Part shown: in pieces, positions 6,860-25,815 of the stretch | Numbering within the stretch: position 1 is the stretch's first letter | How the letters are laid out: each line of letters opens with the position of its first letter | Source: Spirogloea muscicola | Taxonomy: Eukaryota; Streptophyta; Zygnematophyceae; Spirogloeales; Spirogloeaceae | NCBI GenBank assembly: GCA_009602725.1 | Contig: WELB01000172.1 | Location: forward strand, 192,864-218,678 | Direction of reading: 5' to 3' | DNA length: 25,815 nt | Notes under the pieces: model-generated | What the model was told of the DNA's origin: nothing | The model's input: the letters and a program-made list of their open reading frames with translations, nothing else | Databases searched by the model: none | Position numbers and translations under genes: made by a program

Positions 6860-9800
6860 ATGGCGCTTGCGCGGCCCGACCTGTCTGCCAGGCACGTCGC
6901 AGCCGGCACCGTACGAGTTGCAAGTTGATTAGGGGGGTTTAGGGTTTTATAAATTTGGGTTTAGGATTTAGGGGTCATACTGTGCTCAGGCCGGCGCTGC
7001 CGCGGCGCAGCCGGCACTGTTGACGCCCTTTTATGTGTCGCGCGCCGGCCTGTGTGGCGCCAGGTGGGTGGTCCTGGCGCTGACCTCGGCCATCATGATG
7101 GGCGCCTACTTCTGCTTCGACAACCCGTCCGCGCTCAAGGAGCCCATCCAGGTCCTCTGCATGCCCCCAGTGGCGGCCTTCTAGCAGCCTCAGCCCTCGG
7201 GCTTTCACGTAGCGCGCCCCAGAAGAGCTCCCAGCAACCTGGCGGCGCGGACTGACGCTCTGTCCTCTTCTGCACAATGTATTGCTGTTCTTTGAGTTTA
7301 CGAAGCAAGTCACATAGTTGATCAATTTCCACCCCCGAGTGGGCATTGGGGTCTGTTGTGTGCACAAATCGCGATGAAGTACCTCTGACGAGCATACAGT
7401 CCAATGCCTCACAGCTCCACTGCAAGAGGTAAAACTGCAGACTGTCTACTGCAAGAGATAAGACTGCAGATTGAAAGGTTCCCTTCACTTTATCGTGCAG
7501 ACAGCGCTGGACCTATCTGACACCCAGTACAACCTGTTCTACTCGGTGTACTCCTTCCCCAACATTGTCCTCCCGCTCGCCGGAGGCATGCTGGTGGACC
7601 GCTGCGGCACCCGCACAGCCATGCTCCTCTTCACCCTCTGCATTGTCCTCGGTCTGCTCCTCAGCACCACCTTGCCTCCGATGACATTTTGCTATGGCTG
7701 GCTGCTTGGGGTCAAGGCTTTCTGTTCAGGATGCCGTTTATTACAATCTGCTGCAGAATATGTAGCAGCAGAGCGATCTTTATACCTATGCGTGCATCTG
7801 TATCTATCCATCACTGCTTCTCCACCTTTCTCCTTGCCATCATGACACTTTGTAACTTCGTCCACTGACCAGAAGGAGGCCCGACCCTCTCCTGCCCCAA
7901 TGCCGTCACTTCCGCAGGTCAAGGCATCTTCGCTGCGGGAATTTACTCTCGCAATTACCACCTGTCGCTCGCCGGCAGATTCACATATGGGCTGGGCGCT
8001 GAGTCACTCAACGTTGGTCAGTCTACCGTCCTTGCCGTCTGGTTCGCTGGCAAGGAGATGGCTCTCGCGATGGGCCTGGGCTTGACTGTCGCCAGAATGG
8101 GATCCGTCATCAACGACTGGGTATAGTCATGCACAACGATTGTTGTGCAAGAAACTGCAGCCCCCACTGTTCATACATACCTGCATGTCTCCATACAGAT
8201 GCTTCCAGCAGTATTGTCTTTTAAGACTTGCTGATATGTTGTCGAATGTGCAGGTCTGTCCTGCCATTTTCAACTACAAGCACGTCCCTTTCTTTCACCA
8301 GCACGAGCCTTCATCGGCTATCTGGTCAGGCGCTCCGCTCCAGTGATATGGTTCTGACTCATCTTCCTTCCTTCGGATGCTCAGTGGCGCACTGGTTTAG
8401 CAACATGGATGAGATGCAGTCATCGCGGCTAACAATTGCTCTCAATCAGGCCTGCCCCTCTGCTTGTGTAAGAGCCTCAAATGAGTATCACTTCTGCTCT
8501 TTACGCTCATCTGAAAAAAGGTCCAATCCCAGCAATTCTTTTGGCGGTTGTCATGGGGTCTTTGTCTACCGTGGACCCACCTGGCTGTGTTCTCTGGCTG
8601 TCATGAAGGTTTGGATTCATGGTTACCCTTATGTCCCTCGTTTGCTCCATCTCAATGCTCATCCTGGAGAACTACACTGACAAGTACCTGGCAAGGGAGT
8701 GTGCTCTTGAGCCCAAGCGGCCCCTTCTTACCTCCGAAGGCGACAAGGCCCTTGTTGCTTTGCTTGAGGTGAGGAGCTCAGTAAGCTCCCTGTCATAAGT
8801 GCAATACGAGCAACAATGACTTTCAGACCACTCTTCTCTGAGGCCTGTCCTCCTGCGCACTAGGTTATCATGATACATGGATTGAAATGCATGATTACTA
8901 ATTTTGTGAGCCAATTTGACCTGCGGATGTGTACTGGGGCATGCTTATGTGGCAAGAAGCTGATAGATTGCTTGCATTGCTTGTAAACGGCATCAATCTT
9001 TGAGACCCCTGCTGAGCACAAGTCCACACTTTTGGAGGATGTGAAAGCCTTTCCCTTTCAGCTCTGGCTTCTCACAGCGAGGTAGTCAATCAAGCCCAAG
9101 TAAAAGTAAAATGGCGTTTTGCACTTGCGCATTAATGAGAAGATAACTAGCAAGATGTTGGGTTCTGAGTCTTTCAATATCAGGATTTGTTACAGGTACA
9201 TATCAACATTGCCCAAATCATATTTCTATGGTGGGAGTCAGCAATATTCACGGTCTAATGTATGCATGCAGTTGACCTGCATTTTGCTTTATGTGAACAT
9301 CATCGACTTTTCTACTCTTTGCAGCTGTGTTACTGTGTATGCTACTGTGATTCCTTTCAATAATGTTGCTGCTGGTGTTATTATGGTAAGACAACCATGT
9401 CCAGATTGACTAGCTGTAGCTCAACCTTGTCATACAACATCTTGTCCTAGCACCAACATGACAGTGCCTGCGAGTTACTACCAATCAACAGTCTTGACCA
9501 GCAAGGTCACCCTATATGATGATCTGGACATGCCCTTATCATCATGACTCCTCTGCTTGAATGCAGGGCAAGTGGGGCCTCTCACTGCAGGTGGCAGATG
9601 GGCTCATGTCGATTCCTTATCTCATTGCGGCTTGCGTCAATCCTATCTTCGGTTCGCTGGTTGACAAGTACGGCTACCGAGCGAGGCTCTTATTTGCTGG
9701 AGCACTTGCACTTTGCTCTGTGAGCAATCTTTAATCTCTAAAAGAAATTGAATTTGCACCTTAGCCTGAAGGTTGTCAATTCTTGCTCCTCAACTACTAC

Positions 9801-10895: not shown

Positions 10896-10928
10896 AGGCG
10901 AGCCCCAAAGGTCGGACGANCAAATTAC
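10896..10928. other. Ambiguous base and edge of the repeat region
   Basis: The only N of the window is at 10920, eight bases before the first copy of the retroelement C-terminal module begins. A single N next to a repeat border may mark an assembly join or an unresolved polymorphism. Confidence 0.6.
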
Positions 10929-11111
10929 TCAGTAACCCCTGCTAAGCAGCCGCAAATCAGAGAGGCTAGGGTCCTGGAAGTGGGTCCCCTGGACAGAGCC
11001 AGAGGCAGCAGCGAGGGCTCTCCCGGCACGAAGGTGCAGCGCACGGGCCATGGACCTCTGCAGCGAGACGGCCAAGCGCATGCGATACACTTGCGCCAGC
11101 GACCCTGGGGG
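10929..11111 (-). mobile_element. Retroelement C-terminal module, truncated copy
   Basis: The minus strand encodes the family's last residues, including ALAAASG-type sequence, DLRLLSRGY and a stop at 10931-10929. It is nearly identical in DNA to the modules at 18.06 kb, 18.56 kb and 23.06 kb. Nothing else of the element is attached upstream, so this is a 5'-truncated fragment. Confidence 0.8.
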
Positions 11112-11214: not shown

Positions 11215-11321
11215 GTAGGACGCCCCAGGGCCCTATTCTTGAACGGTGTATCTCCGTGCGTATTCGCGGTCGCGGGCAAGCACTTTCTTCGAAAGTGCTC
11301 GTGGTGTAGGACGCCCCAGGG
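11215..11321. mobile_element. 75-bp insertion flanked by 16-bp direct repeats
   Basis: GTAGGACGCCCCAGGG occurs at 11215-11230 and again, identically, at 11306-11321. The 75 bp between starts CCCTATTCTTGAA and ends with an inverted repeat (AGCACTTTC...GAAAGTGCT, 11279-11299). Both ends resemble parts of the retroelement tail (CCCTATTCTCAA and GAGCACTTTCTT). The direct repeats look like a target-site duplication. Confidence 0.55.
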
Positions 11322-11329
11322 GTGCGGGG

Positions 11330-11400
11330 TTGGAAGAATCTAATACACGATCTTTCCTGGAAGAAGGGCTGGCCAAGCCAGCCCAAAAAGAATGTAAATC
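11330..11400 (-). repeat. Retroelement 3' tail with hairpin (diverged)
   Basis: The minus strand carries the tail hairpin GGGCTGGCTTGGCCAGCCC at 11384-11366, preceded by the usual ATTCTTTTT. The terminal GAGCACTTTC box lies further away, next to the 75-bp insertion. Confidence 0.7.
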
Positions 11401-11455: not shown

Positions 11456-11512
11456 GAGAAGAAAGTGCTCGCCCATTGAGAATAGGGCTGGAAAAGCCAG
11501 CCCAAAAAAGGC
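11456..11512 (-). repeat. Retroelement 3' tail with hairpin
   Basis: A near-consensus tail in reverse orientation: AAGAAAGTGCTCGCCCATTG (11459-11478), then the hairpin at 11485-11503 and the A-run AAAAAAG. No C-terminal module is attached, so it is a solo tail. Confidence 0.8.
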
Positions 11513-12667
11513 ATTGTAGCGTCCCGCATCTCATCGTAGCTTTGCTACAGAATGCGGCTATTGTTGAGGTCTGCAGCGCTCCCAGCACTCGCGACAAACC
11601 AGCGTGCTTGGCATGCATTACGCCAGGCTAATGGTTTCGTGGCGGAGGTCTGGCACCTCAGCTTAGCTTGTCAGATATCTATATGCTCACTCGAGGATAT
11701 CTAGTATCCCCCTTAGCCAGCTCATTGCCCCGTTACCAGGACTTGTGTAAGGCTCGGATTGGCCTTCCTTTCCCTTTCATGCGCACGGCGCGCCTTCTCT
11801 CACCGCGCGACTCTTCTCTCCTCCATCATCCTGCCCACCATCGGCGCCACCTTCAGCGCCACCACCATCACTGCCGCTGCGCCAGCCGCCTCTGCCATCA
11901 CCCCAAGCGCCTCTACCATCACCGCCCAGACCTTCCTTACTGCCACCGCTCTTGCCGACCCCGACGCGCCGCCGCTCCCACCTTCGCCACAATCGCTACT
12001 TGCACTGCCATCGCCCCTATTGACCCGTCCGCGATGCCCCTGCGCCGCCAGTGGAGCTGGAGTCCAAACGACCTGAATGCTCGCTCGCCAAAGCGCTACC
12101 ACACCGAGCCCTGGTCCACGATTCCGGCGGTCGCACTTGCCGATTGTGCAGCCGTCTCCACTCTTTGCAGCCGTTCCCTTCACCTCCTCCGCCGCCTCGC
12201 CACCAGCACCGCCGATCGCCCCTCTACCGTCCCCACTGCCTACTCCACCTGCGCCATTTCTCTGCCACCCTTCTTATCCATCGCCCCAACTGCCACCACC
12301 ATCAGTGCTGCTGCGTGACCTGCGTCCGCTACTGCTCCCACCACCCCTACCTTCATATGGCAGCATTGCCATCATTGCTGCCCTCCCCCATATTATCCCC
12401 ACTGCCCAGTCCACCATTGCCACTGCCTCCCCTCCATCATCGCTCCCTTAGCTCCCTTACCATTATCCGTGCTTCCCAACCTTCTCCACCAGCATCGCCT
12501 CCCTCATCGTCGACCCTGCCGTCCTCCCGGTCGACAATTGTGCCTCCGCCTCCACTGTCGCCGCTGCCGCCTTCTCAGTCACCGTCACCGCCAACTCCGC
12601 CTTCGCCGGGACTGCCGTAGTCTTCACCTCCCTCGTCTCCACCTCCACCCACTGAGAGTCTGCAATG

Positions 12668-12730
12668 TGTAAGCATTGCCAGCGGCCCTGTAAAGGGAAG
12701 CGTGGATTTACCCAGCACAAGCGCGCCTGT
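12668..12730 (+). pseudogene. Zinc finger of copy 2
   Basis: Codons give C-X2-C-X12-H-X3-C (CKHC...HKRAC), exactly the spacing of the first finger in copy 1. In RLE-type non-LTR elements such fingers bind the DNA target. All four metal ligands are intact even though the rest of the copy is decayed. Confidence 0.75.
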
Positions 12731-13144
12731 GCGTGATTCGTCAACCATGCTGAGCACGCGCAGAATGCAGCTGCAGTGGGTGGCAGCTGAGTTGGCCCAC
12801 GACGGCACGCCCCATCAGGGCCTACGCCGCCCAGTCCTCACCATTGGCAGTGGGCTGTGGACCTAGACCTGGGCGCGGTCCACAGACAGGAGGCCCTTCT
12901 GCCCCGTTGCCATGCTTCCCGTTGGGCGTGCCCTCACCTGCATCGAGCCCTCCCCCCCAAGATGCAGCACATCGTGGCTGACCACCCCGACGTGGCAGCA
13001 TGGGAAGTCTTCATCCAGTTCCTACACTTAGTGCTTGGGTGCATACCCCGCGTGGGCCACAGTCAATTCCTCAGCCCCTCTTGAAAGGCATCTTCCAGTT
13101 CGAATGGGAAGTGGGAGGAGCTTCTGGCACAGCATGATGCCTCA

Positions 13145-14130
13145 GTGGCTGCGGCGGCAGCTAGTTGCCGTGCCTCGCAGGCAGCGGCGCCGACACCAGA
13201 CAGGGCAGCAAGCGTCCGCCGCGTTCTCCGCTTCAGACACGCAGGCACGCTATCGAGGGCCGTTCTGGCGCTGGAAGATTTGGTGCTGGTGCCGGTCAGT
13301 GGAATGGAGAATGTAGGCATGCCTTCGGGACCTCCACCCCCCACCCACCTCCCCTGCTCTTGTAGTTGGCCTCATTTGTGCTGCAGAAGGAGGTGGTCCT
13401 GGATGCTGCAGCCCTTGCAAGGCCCTGAAGCGCAGCTGCAGGTGACCCTCCCACATACTTTGAGAGCAACTGCAGGAGCTTCTGGAGGGGGACAAGGAGG
13501 ACATCCGGGCGATGCAGCAGGTGCGCCAGCACCTCTCACTGGACCACTTTCCCGCCAGAAATAACGACATGCTCTACGCAGCACCTTGCTTGCCCTCAGT
13601 AGGCGAAAGAGGGGATTCCAGACAAAAGCCACTGGAGAGATGCTCTACAGCCTGGTGGCACAGTTCCTGTGGCAGCAGCAAACTGGGCAGGCCCAGACTC
13701 TTTCCTGGAGGGCGAGAAGCGGCAATGTGGAGACCCTTTGATCTAGCACTGGCACGCGTTGAAGGGACCTGCTGGCAGACTTCTTCTACTCATTGGCCCA
13801 CGACAGTGCGCTTACGACGGCTGCTGCAGACGATACCACGCTTGTGGACCAGCAAGAGCATGTCATTGCCGCCTTCGCCACCCTCCAATGGCAGCCAGGG
13901 CAACAACAGCCTGGCCATCTACGCAGGGAATGGCATTGCTTGGTCGATGCAATGCCTGCCAACCCTCCTGCCACTGCCCGCCAGATGCCAGACACCTACA
14001 GGTGGCCTCACCCTCCTTGTGATCTACTTTGGCACTCCAGCTTTCTTGTAGGAGCAACTGCAGGCACGGCTGCTGGAGCACCTCCAGTCGGCGGACTACC
14101 TTCTGGAGCTGCAGAATATGCAGCTGGCGC
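13145..14130 (+). pseudogene. Reverse transcriptase region of copy 2 (broken)
   Basis: The frame from 13145 reads AAAAASCRAS... then RAASVRRVLRFRHAGTLSRA, matching RAASVRRALGYGHAGELSRA of copy 1. Further on, DPLADFFYSLAHDSALTT followed by AADDTTLVDQQEHVIAAFAT corresponds to copy 1 motifs B and C, with the stretch between them deleted. EQLQARLLEHLQSADYLLEL then matches EGQLRARLAEHLQ of copy 1. Several frame changes separate the blocks, so no active enzyme can be made. Confidence 0.7.
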
Positions 14131-15470
14131 TGGCACTGCATTCCAGGTGCCTTGCACAGCGCCCGCAGTACGTGGTCCGGGCCCTACCCCCCTCCCAGCC
14201 GCGCAGGCTGCGCATGCAACATTCAATGCAGGCATCCTGGCGAGCGCGGCGGCCCTCGTCCCTTGGCTCGCCGGTGCCCAACAGGCCTCCCTAAGAGTGG
14301 GCAGTGGCGGTCTGGGTTGCCGCCGGCTTGCTTGCGCCTGCAGGGTGGTGTACCTGGGCTACTGGACGCAGGTCGCCGCCCTTTTGCTCCAGCAAATCAT
14401 TTGGCTTGGTTGTTGCATGCGCTGCGGACGTGGAGACCAGTTCGCTGCTCTTCCAGGCAGCTCTCCGCTTGGCCTGCAATGTGCCGCTTGCGAACTACCT
14501 CGTTCTGGCGCAGCGGCCAATGCACCATAAGCGCACCTCATGCATACAGCCAACCTCCGAGCCCAAGCTTACTTCATGGAGAAGGTGGAGAAGGCCTCCT
14601 TCAACACGGCTGTAAAGCCCCTGCCTCCCCATCTACGCGGCCCTCAGCATGCTGGACGACATCTTCCGGACAGCCATTGTCGCCTCCATCCACCCTGCCT
14701 CAGTGGTGTGGTGCAGCGCGAGTACGGAGATCGCAGCACAGAGGCGGCGGCTTTGACGGTGCACATGCTGCGGTGCACATGAGGAGGGGAGCGGACCGGC
14801 ACGCACGACCTCCTCTGGAACACCATGTATGGTGTTTTCCTGGAGGCGGGCTACACCGTCACCATCGGTATCTCCACCGTCATGCCCATCAAATTTGGGG
14901 CAGATTGCCTTCTCCACACGCGCTGGAACAGGGCCCAAGTACATAGCAGTCACCACCAATTGCTTTGACTCCAAGAATTCCTACAATCGGTGGAGGAGGC
15001 GGGCTATGCAGTCCGCCAAGCAGCAGATGCCAAGGAGCGAAGTATGCAGATCGCCTTGCTAGCCACCACTTTGGCTGCTTGCAGTTGCGTCCACGGGGCG
15101 CTTTGGACTTGCTGATTTAAGCACTCCAGCAGCTTGCGCAGCGTGCTTTGTAATTGCCGTAAAGGGCGGCATAGCGAGCAGCCCGGCTCCAATGCTATTG
15201 GGTCACTTGCTCGAGTACAGAAGGGGCCTTGCAATCTGCAGTGGATTTTGGCGTTTGCCATGCACTTGCGCACGTTGCGCGCCTTGGCTGCTGCGTCCTG
15301 GTTTCGCAACAGAAGTTTGCCCTCTACTTAAGCTGATCTGCTGTTCTTAACTGTAGGTTACTGAGCGTCCATTTGCAGAAGTCACGGAATGTAGATTTAT
15401 CTTATTGAGCCTACTGGCCCTTTCAAGTCTTATTTGACCTTTGGGTCTTGCTTCTTACAGCCATCGCCTT

Positions 15471-15899
15471 ACTCCAGAAGAGCTGTTTGTATCCGCGCCA
15501 TAACGAGTAGCCGTCCCACCCCAAAATACTATTCCATAATAACGAATGAATGGCGCGTGTTGCGCTTATATTGAAAAATGGGGGCCAAAACAGGCCATAT
15601 GTTGATCAGGCAAAAGCTGTTGCAGAGAGTGGGGCTACACAATCAAAAGCACTTGCATATGGCACTTGCACTTGCACCAGCTGAAATTTGCAATGCTACG
15701 GCTATAGCGGTGCATATACTCACGCGGGGCAGTCCCTAGCAGACGGACTCGAACCTGCCGGCCACACACTTGCCTGCTACCAGGAAGCCCGGTCTCCTAA
15801 AAGAGAGAGCGTCCGTTCTATGGTCACTTGAAGGGAGCAAGCTCAAGTTGGCGGTGCGGGCCAACTCATCAATAACTCATATGAACAATGAGGTCTTCA
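15471..15899. other. Stretch without recognisable gene
   Basis: Moderate-GC sequence between the diverged tail of copy 2 and gene B. A GGTTCGAGTCC motif on the minus strand (15755-15745) looks like a tRNA box B, but no cloverleaf can be folded around it. TTGCAC-type short repeats occur at 15650-15680. Nothing else is supported. Confidence 0.5.
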
Positions 15900-17878: not shown

Positions 17879-18380
17879 TCTCCTTGACCACCTCGCCGGG
17901 CGGGGGGGGCCACCAATGCGCGGGCGTGGGTCCCACTCCAGACGGCTCACGGCCTTGTGCCACGTGGCAATGACAGAGTTGCCATGGGGCACTCGGCATC
18001 GTGTCACGTGGCACTGAGGCAGAGTCCCCAACGCCGGGCGGGGCTCTCGGCGGGAAGCCCCTCTGTGGGCGCAAGTGTATCGAATGCGCCTGGCCGTCTC
18101 GCTGCAGAGGTCCATGGCCCGGGGCGCTGCACCTTCGTGCCGGCAGAGCCCTCGCTGCTGCCTCTGGCTCTGTCCAGGGGACCCACTTCCAGGACCCTAG
18201 CCTCTCTGATTTGCGGCTGCTTAGCAGGGGTTACTGAGTAATTTGTAGCTGCTTTCTTTCTTTGTGTGCTTTGGTTTCTTAGCGCTTCCTCTGGCTTCCT
18301 CTGGCCCCCTTCTCGTTCTTTGTTCATTCTTTTTTGGGCTGGCTTGTCCAGCCCCTATCCTCAATGGGCGAGCCCTTTCT
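17879..18380 (+). mobile_element. Tandem unit 1: unknown head + C-terminal module + 3' tail
   Basis: The head (17879-18063) has no similarity to copy 1. It holds an inverted repeat of GTGCCACGTG (17957-17966 and 18005-18014). From about 18064 the sequence is the family C-terminal module: RMRLAVSLQRS-type reading, RAGRALAAASG, then SDLRLLSRGY with TGA at 18235-18237. The tail (18240-18380) has the hairpin at 18336-18354 and ends GAGCCCTTTC. The unit looks like a chimeric or non-autonomous derivative that borrowed the family's 3' end. Confidence 0.7.
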
Positions 18381-18866
18381 TCTCCTTGACCACCTCGCCG
18401 GGCGGGGGGGGCCACCAATGCGCGGGCGTGGGTCCCACTCCAGACGGCTCACGGCCTTTTGCCACGTGGCAATGACAGAGTGCCATGGGGCACTCGGCAT
18501 CGTGTCACGTGGCACTGAGGCAGAGTCCCCAACGCCGGGCGGGGCTCTCGGCGGGAAGCCCCTCTGTGGGCGCAAGTGTATCGAATGCGCCTGGCCGTCT
18601 CGCTGCAGAGGTCCATGGCCCGGGCGCTGCACCTTCGTGCCGGCAGAGCCCTCGCTGCTGCCTCTGGCTCTGGCCAGGGGACCCACTTCCAGGAGCCCAG
18701 CATCTCTGATTTGCGGCTGCTTAGCAGGGGTTACTGAGTGTCTCGTAGCAGCTTTGTTTCTCTTACTTAGCGCTTCCCCTGGCCCCCTTCTCGTACTCTG
18801 TTCATTCTTTTTCGGGCTGGTTGTTCCAGCCCCTTATTCTCAATGGGCGAGCACTTTCTTCTGTGG
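18381..18866 (+). mobile_element. Tandem unit 2: direct repeat of unit 1
   Basis: It repeats 17879-18239 at about 97% identity by eye, offset 500-502 bp, and starts exactly where the tail of unit 1 ends. Differences include GTTGCC to GTGCC, one fewer G at about 18620, and SISDL in place of SLSDL. The stop TGA is at 18735-18737. The tail hairpin is GGGCTGGTTGTTCCAGCCC (18814-18832), ending GAGCACTTTCTT. Confidence 0.8.
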
Positions 18867-18960
18867 GGCCCCCCTTCTCGTCCTTTGTTGATTCTTTTTT
18901 GGGCTGGCTTTTCCAGCCCCTATTCTCAATGGGCGAGCACTTTCCTCTGTGGGGCCCCCC
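18867..18960 (+). repeat. Third tail, tandem duplication of the tail alone
   Basis: After CTGTGGGGCCCCCC the tail starts again (TTCTCGTCCTTTGTTGATTC). It has the hairpin at 18901-18919 and ends GAGCACTTTCCT followed by CTGTGGGGCCCC once more. The CTGTGGGGCCCC spacer repeats with it, so this is a roughly 88-bp tandem copy. Confidence 0.75.
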
Positions 18961-19029
18961 CCAGGGCCGGCAAAGCCGGATATCAAATAGCTCTCGTCCT
19001 ATGCTCATTCATCTGTTCATTGGCTTGAC

Positions 19030-19215
19030 CTGCTTCACCGCCTTGCGCAGCGAGCAGCGGCCCGCCGCCACGGGCAGCAGGGCGAGCAGTCTGGCTACAA
19101 TGTCGCCGGGTCCCTCGCTCGAAGTCTTCCGGATGCGCTTGGCCATCTCTTTGCAGCGGTCCCTTGCCTTCGCGGTTCACTTGCGTGCAGGCCGGGCTTT
19201 GGTGGTATCTGGTCT
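19030..19215 (+). mobile_element. Diverged C-terminal module
   Basis: The plus strand reads SLEVFRMRLAISLQRSLAFA then VHLRAGRAL, clearly matching SLVQVYRMRLAVSLQRSMAR of copy 1 but with many changes. It lacks the ending and the tail. It sits directly before the 5' region of copy 1, so it may be the remnant into which copy 1 inserted. Confidence 0.65.
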
Positions 19216-19591
19216 TTCCGCAATTTTGCTGATCAGGTCGCGGGCGCCGCCGCCGCCGCCGCCACCCCTCTTAAACCCCGGGCCACCGTTGCCGGCGGCG
19301 CCCGCCATGGGGATCGCGGCGGCGTGCAGGCCCCCTCCCGGCCCTGCCCCTGCGCCGGCTCCCGCTGCCACCGTCGCTCCCGTCGCCGCCGCGTTGCCCG
19401 CCGTCGCCCCACCCGCACGGTCTCGGCGCCGCCTTCGGAGCCGGAGTCCCGAACTTCCCCCGGCCAAGTTCGCGTAGGCGCAGCGGTTTCTCGCCCTCGC
19501 CGCCTTCCATGCCGCCACCACGCCATCTCCGCCACAGCCCCGCCTTCTTCCGCCGTCGCCACCCTCGCCTGCGAAGCCCCCGAGCGCGCCG

Positions 19592-20467
19592 TGCCCCACC
19601 TGCCCGCTGGACTTCGCAACTCCCCATGGCGTCTCCGTGCATCGGCGACACTGCAAGGGGCATGCCAGCCCCACCGGCACTCCGCCCCCCGCGGCCGTCG
19701 CGGCTTGCAGCACCATCGTCCCGGCCCTGGCATCTACTCCGGCGGAGCATACCACGGAGCATTACATGGAGGCCACTACTCTATCGCCTCCCGCCCGAGA
19801 GAAGTGTCGGGCACAAACGTTGTCGCCTACACCCCTGAGATGCGAGGGGACCCGCGAGGTGACCACGCTCCTCCATCCTCAGGGTATTATGCCCCATGTG
19901 CTCGGCCCTGACGACCCTGAGTATGCTTCTCCGTCGACAGAGGTGCAGCAGCCGCTACCGCCCGCCGAGCCGTTGTCACCACAGCCGCCGTCGTCCCCAC
20001 CGGCCCCACCTCCCCCGACGCCGCCTTCCCAACTATCCGCCATCCCGCCTCTCGAGCCGCCCAGCCTTCCACAGTCGGCGCCATCGACGCCGCCCCCATC
20101 TCCGCCGCCTCCACCCCCGCCGAGCGAGCCGGCTCCACCATCTTCGCCCCCACCTCTCTCGCCCGACCCGCCACGGCGCCAGCTTTGCCAGAGGACCTTC
20201 ACCACGCGGTCCGGCCGGTCCAATCACCAGCGAACTTGCACGTGCACCAACAACCGTGCGGAGGAGGCGCGGAGCGCAGCGGCGGCGGGTGGTCGTTGGG
20301 GCAGACCAGGCAGGCCTCCCGCGCCATCCCCGCCCACGCCTCACCACACTGGCAATGGCTGGCAGGCCTCGACCTGGCCGCAATTCACTGCCAGGCGGCC
20401 CTGCCGCTCCTTCGCCACGTTCCGCTCCGGGCGCGTTCACACCTCCACCGCGCACTCCGCCCGGTGA
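19592..20467 (+). pseudogene. Copy 1 N-terminal region: two zinc fingers and Pro-rich linker
   Basis: One open frame. Finger 1 (19592-19654) is C-X2-C-X12-H-X3-C (CPTC...HRRHC). A linker of mostly Pro, Ser and Ala follows (about 19930-20170). Finger 2 (20186-20239) keeps C, H and C with the same X12 and X3 spacing, but the first Cys position is Arg (CGC, one base from TGC). These fingers are expected to recognise the insertion target. After about 20280 the homologous protein continues in another frame (HWQWLAGLDLAAIHCQAAL), so a frameshift lies near 20280. Confidence 0.75.
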
Positions 20468-21664
20468 CACAGCGGACTTCGCGGACCACAGGGACGAGGC
20501 GGCGTGGAAGTTGTTCATCCTCTTCCCCCGGCTGTTGCTGGGGCGGCTCTCTCCCGACAGCCGCAAGCAGGGACAGCAGCCCCTCTTGGAACGCGTCCAG
20601 TTGTTCGAGAGTGGGCACTGGGAGGAGCTCCTGGCGAGGCACGACGCAGCCGTGGCCGCGTCCGCGGCCAACCGTGGTGGCCTAGGGGCAACACACGAAC
20701 GGGCGGCCAGCGTCCGCAGGGCTCTTGGCTATGGCCACGCAGGTGAGCTTTCCCGGGCGGTGCAGGCCCTGGACGATGCGATGCTGGCGCCAACCAATGC
20801 GGCAACCCGGGCGGCTCTGGACTCCCTCCACCCCCCGGCCAGCTCCCCCTTGCCACCGTGGTTGGCCGCGTTCGCCCCGCCGGAGGAGGTGGTCTTGGAA
20901 GCCGACGCCCTCAAGAAGGCTCTCCAGACCAGCCGTCGCGCAGCCGCTGGCGGCCCCTCCCGCATGCTAACTGAGCATTTGCGGGAGATCTTTCTCGAGG
21001 GTGAAGCGGCAGACTTCAACGCGCTGCTGCAGATCTGCCAGCATATGGTCCGAGACAATGTGTTGGCCAGCATCCGCGGCGTACTGTGCACCAGCGCGCT
21101 GCTCGCCCACAACAAGCCGAGCGGGGGAAACAGGCCCATTGCCATTGGGGAGGTCCTGTATCACCTGGTGAGCCGCGTACTCTGGCAGCAGCATGCAGGG
21201 CCGGCGCAGGTGCACATGGCGCCACACCAGTACGGCGTGGGGCTGCGGAGTGGGGGCGAGGCCGTCGTCCACGGGGTTCGTGCGACCTTGGACCAGCACC
21301 CGGGGTGGCTGGTGCTGGCCGTTGATGTGAAGGATGCCTTCAACACTGTGGAGCGCGCCAGTCTTGCGGAGGAGCTCCGGGCATCCTTCCCCTCCTGGTA
21401 CCCATTCTCCGCTTGGGGTACGGTCAGCCCAGCGACCTCCTCTGGCGGACAGGGGGTGATCAAGTGGAGGTCCTGCAGTCCCAAGCGGGTACGCGGCAAG
21501 GGGACCCCCTCGCCAGCTTCTACTTTGCGCTCGCTCACCACTGGGCTCTGCAGGCTACCGCGGCGGCACACCCAGGAGTCCTACTCCCCACCTTCGCGGA
21601 CGATACCACCATAGTCGGCCCTCCAGAAGACGTGGCGGCGGCCTTCGTCACCTTCGAGCTGTAG
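20465..21664 (+). pseudogene. Copy 1 reverse transcriptase region
   Basis: The frame entered near 20465 reads DEAAWKLFILFPRLLLG, RAASVRRALGYGHAGELSRA, NKPSGGNRPIAIGEVLYHLV (RT motif 1-2 region) and LAVDVKDAFNTVERASLAEE (motif A with catalytic Asp, about 21315-21375). Near 21395 the homology moves to another frame: LRLGYGQPSDLLW, QAGTRQGDPLASFYFALAHH (motif B) and TFADDTTIVG (motif C, FADD at 21593-21604). A TAG at 21662-21664 interrupts FEL-LATLGLS, where a CAG Gln codon is likely in the ancestor. Catalytic residues survive although the frame does not. Confidence 0.85.
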
Positions 21665-22650
21665 CTGGCAACCCTCGGCCTGTCCACCCGGGCGCCGAAG
21701 TGCACGGCTTGGTCTCCCTGCGGCCTCCCACCCACCCTAACGCTGCCCACCAGATGCCAGACTCCAGCAGATGGCTTCCCCCTGCTGGGGGTCCCCATCG
21801 GCTCGCCGCCCTTCGTGGAGGGCCAGCTGCGAGCCCGCCTTGCGGAGCATCTTCAGCCTGCGGCCCGGCTTCCCGAGCTGGACGATATGCATCTGGCGTT
21901 GGCCATGTTGACCAAGGCCATTGGGCAGCGGCCCCAGTACTTGACGCGAGTCACTCCGCCGTCCCCAGGGGCGTTGGCGGTGTACACGGATTTGGACGCA
22001 GGCGACCTTGGTGGCCCTGGTCCGCCAACAGGGCTTCCTCCAGTCGCCAGCCGCTATCCACCAGGCGGCGCTACCCCTCAGCCACGGTGGTCTCAGCCTG
22101 CGCCCGCTCGCCCGTTCTTGCCGGGCTGCATACCTCGGCAGCTCAGCGCAGACTGCTGCCTCCGTGGCCCAGCGCTTCATGGTCCACGGCCGGCGTGTAC
22201 TGGAGCAGGCGGTGGAGGAGGTCGACATGGGCGCGCTGCCGTTCCAGGTGTCGCTTCGCTCCGCCCACCAGGAGCTGCTCGCGGCGCACCCGGACCTGGC
22301 AGGCCAGGCGGTCTCCTTTGCGCGCCTTGCGTACACCGCTGACGTGCGCGTCCAAGCGCGATTCGCGGCCGTGGTCAACAAGGCCGCCTACACCACCGCC
22401 GTGCTGCAGCTCCCCGAGGCCGACCTGCGCGAGCGCGCGAGACTTCAATCGGCCTCCTCCCCGGGGGCAGCGGCGTGGCTTAGGGCCCTCCCCATCAATG
22501 ACGCCCTCACTCTCCCCGATGAGGTATTTCGCACTGCCGTCCACCGGTTCCTGGGACTGCCGCCTCCATGTCTCCAGGGTGTGCGTCAGTGTGTATGCGG
22601 CGAGCGAGAGGCCGACTCTGGGGAGCTGGCCGCTCATGTTCTCGCCCACC
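21665..22650 (+). pseudogene. Copy 1 post-RT (thumb/connector) region with Cys/His patch
   Basis: EGQLRARLAEHLQ and LDDMHLALAMLTKAIGQRPQ are in one frame (from about 21815). The homology then moves to the frame from 22008: QAALPLSHGGLSLRPLARS, AYLGSSAQTAA, FARLAYTADVRVQARFAAVV. It ends with CVCG (22590-22601) and HVLAH, the Cys/His patch that precedes the endonuclease in RLE elements, here imperfect. Blocks of the same order occur in copy 2 (for example AHTANLRAQAYFMEKV). Confidence 0.7.
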
Positions 22651-22653
22651 GGT

Positions 22654-23212
22654 GGCGAGCGGACAGCGGCTCACGACCGTCTCCGCGATGCGATGCATGG
22701 CATCCTGGTGGAGGCTGGCTTCTCGGTGGCAGCGGAGCAATCCGGCGTCATGCCGCTCCAGGAAAGGGCCGACGATCTCCACGCCCGTCGCGTAGACCTG
22801 GTCGCCACCCCACAGGCGGCAGGCCACGTCTTCTCCTGGACGTGGTGACTACCGACGCATACGACCGCTCACACCCAGTCGCCTGCGCCGCTCGGGCTAA
22901 AGAGCTCAATTTCGCCGACCATCCGCGGGAAGCCGAGTTCTTCCCGTTGGCGATTGACACCATGAGGCGCTGGGCGCTCGGTGGCTCGAGCTGCTCACCC
23001 AGCTCGCCCGCCACACGATCGCCCGTAGCTTCCATGGGGAGCCAGTAGTATTTCCTGCAGCTGGGTCGCTGGTGCAAGTGTACCGCATGCGCCTGGCCGT
23101 CTCGCTGCAGAGGTCTATGGCCCGAGCGCTGCACCTCCGCGCCGGCAGAGCCCTCGCTGCTGCCTCTGGCTCTGGCCAGGGGTCGCACTTCCAGGAGCCT
23201 AGCATCTCTGGC
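22654..23212 (+). pseudogene. Copy 1 restriction-like endonuclease and C-terminal module
   Basis: GERTAAHDRLRDAMHGILVE and ARRVDLVATPQ are in one frame. They are followed, after a shift near 22820, by RPRLLLDVVTTDAYDRSHPV and ACAARAKELNFADHPREAEF, then FFPLAIDT. This fits the RLE pattern R-x-D ... D-V ... K, with Val where a Pro usually precedes the Asp. After another shift near 22970 come RWLELLTQLARHTIARSFHG, AGSLVQVYRMRLAVSLQRS and RAGRALAAASGSG to SISG. The normal end (SDLRLLSRGY) is cut off here at about 23212. Confidence 0.75.
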
Positions 23213-23332
23213 TTTGTTTCTTTGTGGTGCTTCTTTTCTTAGTGCTTCCCCTGGCCCCCTTCTCGTTCTTCGTTCATTCTTTCTGGGCTGGCTTTTCCAG
23301 CCCCTATCATCAATGGGCGAGCACTTTCTTTG
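23213..23332 (+). repeat. 3' tail of copy 1
   Basis: The T/C-rich lead CCTGGCCCCCTTCTCGTTC precedes the hairpin GGGCTGGCTTTTCCAGCCC (23285-23303) and the terminal box ATCAATGGGCGAGCACTTTC (ending about 23328). In target-primed reverse transcription the 3' UTR structure is what the RT recognises, which would explain why the stem is kept in every copy. Confidence 0.8.
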
Positions 23333-23376
23333 GCGGCGGCCTCCGGCTTCTGTTCGGGCGACGTCTTTCTGCCTGC

Positions 23377-23510
23377 TAGCTACTCAGACTTGCATCCACC
23401 AACTAGAGGTTACTGAGAGTCCCCTTGCTGCTGTCTCAGTCCTTGGCACTCCGGCTCCTTCAGACCTTATCCATGCCTTTGGGCTGGCCTCTCCCAGCCA
23501 CCAGTTAATC
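23377..23510 (+). mobile_element. C-terminal end plus tail, subfamily 2
   Basis: YSDLHPPTRGY with TGA (GGTTACTGAG at about 23407-23416) is followed by a tail with hairpin GGGCTGGCCTCTCCCAGCC (23481-23499). It is the plus-strand partner of the minus-strand copy at 24590-24725, so the two form a large inverted pair. Confidence 0.7.
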
Positions 23511-23580
23511 TGGTCGCGCTTGCTCATTCTTCTTTGGGCTGGCTTGTCCAGCCCCTATCCTCAATGGGCGAGCCCTTTCG
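23511..23580 (+). repeat. Retroelement tail
   Basis: GCTCATTCTTCTTTGGGCTG, hairpin at 23536-23554, then CTCAATGGGCGAGCCCTTTC. It is almost identical to the tail of tandem unit 1, including the GAGCCC variant, and lies directly after the subfamily 2 copy. Confidence 0.75.
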
Positions 23581-23819
23581 CTTGCGAAGCAAGGCAACGG
23601 CTGTAAGAGGGCAGCCCCCAGAAAAGGTACAAAGCAGCTTTTCTGATGTGGCACAAGGCTGTGAAAGGGCCAGCCGAAATGGAAATGACAAGGTCTCCAA
23701 AGAGTAGCTCTGCCAATGGGGGCAAGGGCTGTGAAAAGCCTGCCCGAAAAGAATTGACGGAGGTTTGAAGGGGCCAGATGACGGAGGAGCCTAGATGCGC
23801 CATGACAGAGTGGGTGTAG
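23581..23819 (-). repeat. Degenerate tail-like sequences
   Basis: Three GGCTGT...GCC-type sequences in reverse orientation (near 23599, 23650 and 23726), each followed by an A-rich run (CCAGAAAAG, CCGAAATGG, CCCGAAAAG), look like worn tail hairpins. The stems are imperfect. No gene is present. Confidence 0.4.
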
Positions 23820-24092
23820 GATGGACTACTCAGTAGCTACAAGTGAGGAGCCTCAAATCGAGACAGACTAGCTGCCGGAAAGCAATCCCCCTGACAAAAG
23901 CCAGATTCTGCAGCGAGAGCCCAACCAGCGCGCAGATGCTCACCCGTGGGTACGGAGCTTCCCTCTGCTTCGTCTCGTATTTTGTAGTGTAGTCCTTTTT
24001 CGGCACCTCTTTCTTTGTCTTTGGACAGTATCCATTCCTTTTGGGCTGGTTTTGCCTGCCCCTCTTCTCTACGGACGCGCACTTTCGATGCT
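23820..24092 (+). mobile_element. Tail-bearing element, subfamily 3
   Basis: A CTACTCAGTAGCTAC...GTGAGGAG start leads to a tail with TTTGTAGTGTAGTCCTTTTT, CACCTCTTTCTTTG and GGGCTGGTTTTGCCTGCCC (24043-24061, stem mismatched), ending GCGCACTTTC. A related sequence in reverse lies at 25585-25760. No protein-coding part is attached. Confidence 0.55.
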
Positions 24093-24582
24093 AGGAAAGT
24101 GCTCGCCCATTGAGGATAGGGGCTGGAAAAGCCAGCCCAAAAAAGAATGAACAGAGTACAAGAAGGGGGCCAGGGGAAGCGCTCAGAAAACAAGCACACA
24201 AAGAAACTAAGCAGCTACGAATCACTCAGTAACCCCTGCGAAGCAGCCGCAGCTCAGAGATGCTAGTCTCCTGGAAGTGGGGCCCCTGGCCAGAGCCAGA
24301 GGCAGCAGCGAGGGCTCTGCCGGCACAGAGGTGCAGCGCGCGGGCCATAGACCTCTGCAGCGAGACGGCCAGGCGCATGCGGTACACTTGCGTCAGCGAC
24401 CCGGCTGCAGGAAAGGTTACCGGCTCCTTATGGAAGCGACGGGCGATGGTGTGGCGGGCGAGCTGGGTGAGCAGCTCGAGCCACCGAGCGCCCAGCGCCC
24501 CGTGGGTGTCAATTGCCAACGGGAAGAACTCGTCTTCCCGCTGATGGTTGGCGTACTTGAGCTCTTTAAGAGAAAGCGCGGC
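24093..24582 (-). mobile_element. 5'-truncated retroelement copy with intact C-terminus and tail
   Basis: On the minus strand: KELKYANHQREDEFFPLAID, then GALGARWLELLTQLARHTIA, SLTQVYRMRLAVSLQRSMAR and SELRLLRRGY, with the stop at 24228-24226, all in one frame. The tail follows, with the hairpin at 24138-24120 and the terminal box at about 24096-24114. This is the least damaged C-terminal module in the window and gives the reading frame missing in copy 1. It begins right beside the tail of the next element, so the two are head-to-tail. Confidence 0.8.
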
Positions 24583-24589
24583 CAGATTG

Positions 24590-24800
24590 ACTGGTGGCTG
24601 GGATAGGCCAGCCCAAAAGAATGGACAAAGTCTGAGGGAGCCTGAGTGCGAACGACTAGGACTAAGACATCAGCCAGGGAACGCTCAGTAACCTCTAGAC
24701 AGGAGATGCAGGTCCGAGAAGCTAGCCCGAGCGGCGCAGGCGACCGCATACCCAGCCTTGGCGGCACATTTGGCTGGGTGTGAGCGGTCGTATGCTAAGC
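24590..24800 (-). mobile_element. Retroelement fragment: RLE end, C-terminus, tail (subfamily 2)
   Basis: The minus strand reads AYDRSHPAKCAAKAGYAVAC, then AARASFSDLHLLSRGY and a stop at 24687-24685, then a tail with hairpin at 24614-24596. AYDRSHP-ACAARA is RLE sequence (compare copy 1), joined straight to the last ten residues; the whole middle of the module is missing. A second C-terminal end (SISDLQLLS) abuts it at about 24800-24826. Confidence 0.65.
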
Positions 24801-24926
24801 AGCTGCAGATCAGAGATGCTAGGCGTGGCCCGGAAGGGGCAAAGAGAGAAGCGGCTGCTGATATTAAAAGAATCGGCTGTAAACTGCCAGCCAGATGCAT
24901 GCAGGTGTTCATGACGGAGCCAAAGA

Positions 24927-24990
24927 AGAAAGTGCTCGCCGATAGAGAAGAGGAGCTGGCAAAGCCAGCCCAAAATAGTATGGACAAAGA
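24927..24990 (-). repeat. Retroelement tail (minus)
   Basis: AAGAAAGTGCTCGCCGATAG, then the hairpin CTGGCAAAGCCAG region (24953-24971) and CAAAATAGTATGGAC. One stem pair is changed (GAGCTGG against CCAGCCC). Confidence 0.65.
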
Positions 24991-25109
24991 GTTTGAAATT
25001 GCAAACAGAGTGAACAAGGTCGGAGCAAAGCAGGGGGGCTCAGGGGCCACCACCAGCGGCTTTGACAATCTGACCGCTCTGACCCACAACCTTGTTTTCG
25101 GGCTAGCTT

Positions 25110-25590
25110 TGGCCGAGCTGCTCAACCAGCTGTCGCGCCACGCTATCTCCCGCCGCTTCCATGGGGAGCCGGTGGACTTAAATGCTGCCGGCTCCCTGGC
25201 GCAGGTGTATCGCATGCGCTTGGCCGTCTTACTGCACCGTTCCATGGCTCGCGCGCTGCACCTCCGCGCCGGTCGAGCCCTTGCTGCCGCCTCTGGCCCT
25301 AGCCGAGGGCGAGCGGACCGGTTCACACGACCTCCTAGGAGACGCCATGCAGGGTGTGTTGCTGGAGGCCGGCTACAAGGTGGCTGTGGACAATACGACA
25401 ATTCTGCCCAATCCAGCGGGGCGCCGATGGACAGCGTCACACCCGCCGCGCTGACCTAGTTGCCAAACCGCCCGGGGGAGGTCCGCGTATCATTGCAGAT
25501 GTGGTGACTGCAGATTGCGTCGACATTGTCGACTCCGCAAAGTGGGCGACGCTCGCCGGGCACGCGGTCGCTTTGGCGGCTCGGAGTAAG
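25110..25590 (+). mobile_element. Mosaic retroelement fragment: C-terminal module followed by RLE
   Basis: The first part reads ELLNQLSRHAISRRFHGEP, SLAQVYRMRLAVLLHRSMAR and RAGRALAAASGP (to about 25305). It then runs directly into GERTGSHDLLGDAMQGVLLE (about 25308-25370), TRRADLVAKPPGGGPRIIAD and VVTADCVDIVDSAKWA. In copy 1 the GERT/RLE block precedes the C-terminal module, so the order here is reversed, as from two joined fragments or a tail-to-head junction. The RLE block preserves R-x-D...D-V. Confidence 0.65.
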
Positions 25591-25815
25591 AAAGAAGGTG
25601 CTCGCCCATTGAGAAGAGGGGCTGGCAAAGCCAACCCAAAAAGAATGGACAATGTTCAAAGCCAAAGAAAGAGGTGCTGAAAAAGGACTACACTACAAAG
25701 TGCAAGATGGTGCAGAGGGAGATGCAGATGGCTGCTCAGTATCCACGTGTGAGCAACAGCAGATCAGAGTAACTCGGAGCAGGAGAAGCGGCACTTTGCC
25801 GAGACCCGGAAGCAG
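25591..25815 (-). mobile_element. Tail-bearing element, subfamily 3 (minus), runs off the window
   Basis: GAAAGAAGGTGCTCGCCCAT, a hairpin near 25618-25636 (GGGCTGGCAAAGCCAACCC, one mismatch), then GAAAGAGGTGCTGAAAAAGG and ACTACACTACAAAG. The last parts match the reverse complement of 23960-24020. Sequence after about 25760 is unassigned. Confidence 0.55.

Follow-up and report, generated by a model that had tools for sequence, protein, structure and literature searches.

What would a short repeat, kept around one hairpin and scattered among broken retrotransposons, do for the elements that carry it? The question is raised by a 25.8-kb stretch of the genome of the alga Spirogloea muscicola (contig WELB01000172.1, positions 192,864 to 218,678; hereafter the window), which has 59% G+C and a single N and from which all the tail copies analysed here come. 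Broken and nested copies of retrotransposons without long terminal repeats (non-LTR) fill much of its part between 10.9 and 25.8 kb, and the repeat recurs among them as a tail. All together, the data make it likely that this tail is the conserved 3' terminus of a related group of long interspersed nuclear elements (LINEs), acting through its hairpin as start signal for the reverse transcriptase (RT). The group is probably of the restriction-like-endonuclease (RLE), or R2-like, sort, as judged from its coding sequence.

Tail copies and their place behind the LINE reading frame

The initial annotation had described a tail repeated at least a dozen times, and the 13 places that it named all carry it, 12 according to a profile made from six copies and one (23481) through its likeness to another copy, B1; the places 11366 and 11485 fall outside the interval of 18240–25680 given for the repeat. 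In total we list 17 tails, of which 14 are supported and three (C2, C3 and C4) are weak, being recognised by eye and context. The core of the tail is the helix P2, in which GGGCTGG pairs with CCAGCCC (7 bp) around a loop of 5–6 nt. Coordinates are those of the window, and distances are counted from the end of the open reading frame (ORF).

11360–11396, minus strand: tail A11, tail-only, without the 3' half
11459–11510, minus strand: tail A7, tail-only, homology beginning just before P2
15418–15490, plus strand: C4, weak diverged candidate tail of an older RT copy, 86 nt after VGY-stop
18312–18383, plus strand: tail A1, 107 nt after RGY-stop
18790–18862, plus strand: tail A2, 85 nt after RGY-stop
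18870–18948, plus strand: tail A3, following A2 as the second copy in a tandem duplication of 87 bp
23262–23331, plus strand: tail A4, at the 3' end of the longest element copy, from which the stop region is deleted
23458–23521, plus strand: tail B2, with a variant 3' half, lying 73 nt after RGY-stop
23512–23581, plus strand: tail A5, tail-only, abutting the 3' end of B2
23572–23642, minus strand: C3, weak diverged candidate tail, by eye only
23627–23699, minus strand: C2, weak diverged candidate tail, by eye; E 0.59 with a sequence-only model
23699–23769, minus strand: C1, diverged tail, 92 nt after DLRLLTCSY-stop (by eye)
24019–24088, plus strand: tail A10, one stem mismatch, 95 nt after an RGY relic whose stop is lost
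24093–24162, minus strand: tail A6, 96 nt after RGY-stop, tail to tail with A10
24567–24636, minus strand: tail B1, nested in LINE coding sequence and 80 nt after RGY-stop
24926–24995, minus strand: tail A9, no upstream ORF end found
25592–25660, minus strand: tail A8 (sub-family E), 108 nt after RGY-stop

The six-copy profile gave 13 matches of at least 17.9 bits, six of them its own seeds. Twelve correspond to named places, each reaching at least 18.5 bits, and the thirteenth is C1; shuffled versions of the window (n = 40, the single N read as A) peaked at 11.7 bits. Tail B2 (23481) scored only 5.9 bits (E 0.22) with this profile, and it was accepted because of its likeness to B1 (81% identity across 157 nt, E 8e-39) and its match to the sequence-only model (13.7 bits, E 0.0011). 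Nine copies were used to build a structure model, which recovered all nine together with A7, A11, B1 and C1 (E at most 2.1e-4), its next-best match lying at 11252–11289 on the plus strand (E 0.1). The exact pattern GGGCTGG-N5-CCAGCCC occurs at eight of the named places and in none of 100 dinucleotide shuffles. The stem is defective in A10, with one mismatch, and in B1 and B2, which lack the outermost pair. The loop changes as first described: read on the sense strand, it is a CTTTT variant in 11 A tails and CCTATC or CCTCTC in the two B copies. Two possible 3'-terminal remnants, AGCACTTTCTTC and CGAGCACTTTC, stand tail to tail at 11274–11303; they are weak (profile E 0.27 and 5.3, structure model E 0.1).

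Nine of the 17 tails (A1, A2, A6, A8, A10, B1, B2, C1 and C4) sit 73–108 nt past the conserved protein end (F/I/Y)SDLxLL(S/T)RGY-stop or its relic, the distance of A8 being derived from the printed positions of its ORF end and tail. A4, which is preceded by LINE coding sequence, brings the linked tails to ten, and the remaining seven (A3, A5, A7, A9, A11, C2 and C3) have no ORF end of their own. Tails are thus not found mainly apart from retroelement sequence. The reverse statement, that every retroelement fragment ends in the tail, proved too broad. Specifically, the C-terminal coding motif occurs at eight places, five of which lead into a same-strand tail, the weak C4 being among these five; the places at 19130 and 25211 lead into none, and that at 11084 (minus) is cut by the N at 10920. 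This N interrupts a LINE copy 8 nt past its stop codon and probably marks an assembly junction. The SDLxLL(S/T)RGY-stop end itself was seen at 18229, 18729, 23408, 24234 (minus), 24693 (minus), 25744 (minus), 10937 (minus) and 15356, with the variants RRGY at 24234 and VGY at 15356; it is a protein end common to sub-families with different 3' untranslated regions (UTRs).

This difference between the UTRs bears on whether the tail is maintained or merely inherited. Seven ends, from sub-families A, B, E (A8) and C, were compared in pairs, with 100 shuffles each. Different sub-families resemble one another in the coding end (z 3.2–6.7), the UTR from stop to tail is barely alignable (z -0.8 to 3.3 overall, -0.8 to 2.3 for the A/B/E pairs), and among A, B and E the tail is alike again, with 67–85% identity and z 3.2–15.6. 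The comparison of A6 with A8 is the clearest: 69% identity (z 6.1) in the coding part, 56% (z 0.0) in the UTR and 85% (z 15.6) in the tail. Across these diverged elements the 3' hairpin is therefore kept, as in LINE tails of the stringent type. Since the tail stays alike while the adjoining UTR is lost, it is probably under selection as a cis-signal, and this pattern, together with the place of the tail after the ORF, lends good support to the proposal that it serves the element as a 3' UTR signal.

A different account would have the tails conserved simply through recent common ancestry, around a hairpin without function. It fits the close likeness of A1–A6, the local 87-bp duplication that links A2 to A3 and the lack of covariation in P2 described below. 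Neutral ageing would not yield a tail that is retained across A, B and E next to a UTR that is not, and we hold this account to be unlikely. A kept end, a lost UTR and a shared ORF end together would allow a selected tail to be told from mere shared ancestry.

Predicted folding of the tail RNA

Across 13 aligned rows P2 is paired in 96.7% of cells, and RNAalifold, applied to the same rows, returned the same seven P2 pairs and no further ones. Folds of single copies showed in addition an outer helix, P1, in which TTGTYCATT pairs with AATGGGCRA around a pyrimidine-rich internal loop. P1 was predicted in A2, A4, A5, A6, A8, A9 and C1, and in the A type it probably encloses P2, according to these models. 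In nine A rows, a set that leaves out A7, A11 and the B and C tails, P1 and P2 together are paired in 94.4% of cells, compared to 31–59% when the strands are slid. Two double changes appear in P1 in this set, U-A to A-U in A9 and U-A to G-C in A10; the percentage paired and the covariation score were matched by 27 and 26 of 500 shuffles, respectively. C1, aligned by hand, retains a P1-like helix in which C-G is changed to A-U. When ten of the 17 copies were folded against shuffled sequences, four reached z -3.4 to -2.5. An alignment of the four C candidates with A6, B1 and A8 gave a 5-bp consensus helix and no covariation.

The description of a stem kept above a changing loop holds for the nine A rows, in which 3 of 126 stem cells and 8 of 45 loop cells depart from consensus (Fisher p 0.0012, for copies that are not independent), although the single-stranded end GCACTTTC, with 3 of 72 cells off consensus, is conserved like the stem (p 0.67). 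The further step from this conserved stem to a selected RNA structure finds no support in P2, and some, weak, in P1, a helix absent from the initial annotation. The covariation in P1 is only suggestive of selected RNA structure.

Several observations weigh against the reading of the tail as a structured start signal of an RLE-type LINE. Compensatory changes in P2 number zero across the 13 rows. P1 is predicted in only 7 of the 17 copies: A1 and A3 favour another outer helix formed with the same 3' strand, and P1 is unfolded in A7, A10, A11, B1, B2, C2, C3 and C4. As many double changes occurred in 29 of 500 shuffles, and the decayed A10, where three P1 pairs are disrupted, accounts for one of the two. 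P1 is also no better conserved than its surroundings, with 17 of 162 cells off consensus compared to 25 of 189 for loop plus internal loop (p 0.51), and six of the ten copies folded against shuffles lie at z -1.5 to +0.1. As to sequence, the B2 tail compares with the A tails at only z 3.2–3.4, not above the best UTR comparison (3.3), and the C4 tail comparisons are weak (z 1.2–4.3). Finally, the copies all stem from one window and the scanned collections yielded no relative, and the RLE type depends on motifs that we take to be its marks, sequence searches of the PDB having given no RT or RLE match.

The searches behind these statements were as follows. The tail pattern had no match in either the viral or the genome contig collection; in the viral contig collection, 11 stretches fitted a pattern made from an RT piece and 32 one made from the RLE-like alignment, none of which was confirmed. 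At E values of up to 1, Rfam gave seven matches, each far under the gathering score, which we read as chance or as inverted-repeat matches: two microRNA models cover the inverted A10/A6 pair and five matches lie at 16.5–16.7 kb. A transcription terminator was set aside because the T-run precedes the hairpin when the sense strand is read 5' to 3'.

On balance we favour a start signal of the following kind. The tail RNA folds into the P2 hairpin, which in the A type is probably set inside P1, and single-stranded GCACTTTC follows, often with TTCT. The data show the P2 fold, the conservation of the tail and its position behind the ORF, whereas RT binding, priming and the type of endonuclease are inferred. 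The RT of the element would bind the hairpin, and the pyrimidine-rich 3' end would be guided into its active site at the nicked target. Synthesis of cDNA would begin at the tail and often halt early, leaving 5'-truncated copies that retain the tail. Tail-only copies may then be extreme truncations, or may have arisen where an older tail ends, through the making, joining or duplication of a second copy there. The approximately 65-nt RNA is thus a candidate for the start signal of a possibly undescribed RLE-type LINE group, and natural variants of it are available from sub-families A, B and E as well as from C, probably a fourth sub-family; signals as compact as this are relevant to the understanding of target-primed reverse transcription.

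Element type, insertion sites and clustered tails

The larger pieces of element sequence are two copies and a pair of shorter units.

19240–23331, plus strand: longest element copy, with C2H2-like fingers, RT and RLE-like C-terminus; frameshifted, 5' limit approximate
11700–15500, plus strand: relative of the same element, older and in a more decayed state; approximate limits
17879–18860, plus strand: pair of units in head-to-tail order, about 502 and 480 bp long, each a 190-bp non-LINE head, LINE C-terminus, UTR and tail

The Pfam family RVT_1 matches the longest copy in two pieces, in frames that adjoin each other (E 6.9e-5 and 3.1e-4, each under the curated cut-off), and the C2H2 zinc-finger match is weak (E 0.096). 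Copies begin at many different points and keep a constant 3' end, and this 5' truncation, together with the RVT_1-family RT, identifies them as LINEs. LINEs of the RLE type carry zinc fingers at the N-terminus in place of the apurinic/apyrimidinic endonuclease (APE), and no APE match was obtained in the scanned frames of these broken copies. The C-terminal part of the longest copy contains GERTxxHD, RRxDLV and DVVTTD, presumably the marks of a restriction-like endonuclease, and GERTxxHD is shared with the older relative at 11.7–15.5 kb. By eye, GERTxxHDxL is present in the sequences labelled RT1, RT2 and D, and RRxDLV and DVVTxD in RT2 and D. For a restriction-like endonuclease, Pfam gave no match, and the PDB no relevant one for the C-terminal part. 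A PDB match to a trypanosome surface glycoprotein (E 0.014) was read as chance; six weak ones were to imine reductases, an oxidoreductase and IF-1 (E 0.063–0.86), none of them an RT or RLE, and the remaining PDB sequence searches gave no match. An AlphaFold model of one RT piece had a mean pLDDT of 43 and was not used.

The A tails end in GCACTTTC or a close variant of it, with TTCT next in 4 of 10 (A1, A2, A7 and A9) and no poly(A). The one resolved insertion site is that of B1, which lies inside LINE coding sequence; compared to an uninterrupted copy its flanks overlap by 2 bp (TA), without a long target-site duplication. This site is not ribosomal DNA (rDNA), and none of the seven Rfam matches (E up to 1) is to an rRNA family. 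Judged by eye from translations, the antisense A8 meets coding sequence at the same codon as B1, the K of AARAKEL, where the DNA alignment is poor. The two opposite-sense tails thus share this codon, at 24568–24571 (minus) and 25590–25592, a possible target preference.

Solo tails had been attributed to extreme 5' truncation. This fits A7 and A11, which lie 120 nt apart in DNA otherwise without a match to the LINE references. For A3, A5, C2 and C3, each directly after another tail (A3 in its tandem duplication with A2, A5 after B2, C2 and C3 after C1), joining or duplication is as likely. The alternative proposal of SINE-like riders, in which solo tails and 500-bp units form a non-autonomous family of short interspersed nuclear elements (SINEs) sharing the LINE tail, appears improbable. 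Its sole candidate is the pair of units at 17879–18860, where a near-identical 190-bp non-LINE head is fused to a LINE end and tail. Within the window this head is confined to the two adjacent units, and these are about 98% alike from head to stop (7 differences in about 360 columns), resembling a local tandem duplication; moreover, no tRNA gene was found in the window and the tail-only copies show no common body. Past the stop codon the UTRs of the two units clearly differ, a mosaic that simple recent duplication does not explain.

The arrangement of the tails raises one more possibility, namely that the tail acts as DNA, as a target or a site of recombination, and not as an RNA signal; new copies would then enter at older tails or recombine through them. 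Inverted tail-to-tail pairs (A10/A6 at 24086/24095, A5/C3 at 23579) and head-to-tail joins (B2/A5, A2/A3) would be expected of such a site. In addition, 9 of the 17 tails lie less than 100 nt from another, compared to a random mean of 3.3 in 14.9 kb (P 0.011) or 5.7 in 8 kb (P 0.12). In 14.9 kb, P is 0.13 at 75 nt, 0.044 at 90 nt and 0.003 at 120 nt, and because it depends on the choice of distance and background, the clustering does no more than suggest that tails attract tails. The nine also take in the weak C2 and C3 and the plain tandem duplication A2/A3, and the place of the tail after the ORF end requires no target role. We consider a DNA site in place of an RNA signal rather unlikely. 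Both roles might be combined in an RLE-type LINE lineage whose tail serves as RT start signal and as landing site, the AARAKEL K codon (B1 sense, A8 antisense) being a second site. New copies would then be made at the ends of older tails, head to tail by site re-use or template jumping, or inversely tail to tail. This dual role, too, seems quite unlikely. The R2 RT can jump between templates in vitro, although the authors of that study doubt the need for this in vivo (PMC8857657); jumping could be a source of the head-to-tail joins, as could site re-use or duplication.

In conclusion, the initial observation of a repeated hairpin tail mostly holds, and its interpretation is partly supported, the part that makes the tail a LINE 3' signal being likely. 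Outside the retroelement copies, part of a major facilitator superfamily (MFS) transporter gene lies at 7471–7845 on the plus strand (PF07690, E 2.7e-8), the sole ORF of the first 11 kb that was run against Pfam.

Comparison with known systems

Dualen elements carry an APE besides the RLE, and stringent-type LINE/SINE 3' tails occur also in the eel.

The nearest functional parallel is R2. The 3' UTR element that is bound is pseudoknotted for R2Tg and made of two hairpins for R2Bm (PMC12222951). Of the 248 nt in the 3' UTR of R2Bm, the structure resolves a 40-nt core on the protein (PMC10499050). The element described here would likewise use structured 3' UTR RNA as start signal, and it resembles R2 in its N-terminal C2H2-like fingers, its RT and, by eye, its RLE-like C-terminus. 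In contrast to R2, its tail measures about 65 nt at the extreme 3' end, with a hairpin probably nested in an outer helix, and the one resolved insertion site (B1) is LINE coding sequence instead of 28S rDNA; in the PDB searches the R2 structures had no sequence match to the element. RLE clades comprise CRE, R2, R4, NeSL and HERO (PMC4640811), and in the literature on algae and RLE elements, as far as it was available, a like combination was not found, which is no proof of absence; the group may be undescribed.

The Zepp clusters of Coccomyxa and Chlorella consist of nested, 5'-truncated LINE copies in arrays mainly of 3' ends (PMC8226300, PMC3446292). The copies in the window are nested and 5'-truncated in the same way, but Zepp is placed among the L1 LINEs (PMC8226300), and here neither an APE match nor poly(A) was found. 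If the dual role of the tail were true, it would produce Zepp-like self-targeted clusters with an unrelated endonuclease class. The Chlamydomonas SINEs share their tails with RandI LINEs, SINEX-2_CR ending in (CTTT)n and others of the set in (ATT)n (PMC3747384). The (CTTT)n end is somewhat like CTTTCTTCT, a likeness by description and not by sequence; an APE beside an RLE, as in Dualen and RandI, gave no match in the scanned frames of these broken copies.

Conserved 3' hairpins in LINE/SINE pairs were described by Ohshima in 2013 (PMC3747384). In ME1, a plant L1 lineage of maize and sorghum, the last 45 nt diverge by 0.144, compared to 0.570 overall, and CGAG stands 3' of the stem; plant L1-clade elements mostly end in poly(A) (PMC3747384). 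The present elements are unlike that clade in their CTTTCTTCT-like end and in giving no APE match in the scanned frames. CGAG is found 3' of the stem here too (GGGCGAGC), possibly by chance. As in the stringent-type plant L1 tails, a 3'-end hairpin is kept while the remainder diverges, and in this respect the tail is the expected kind of signal for LINEs.

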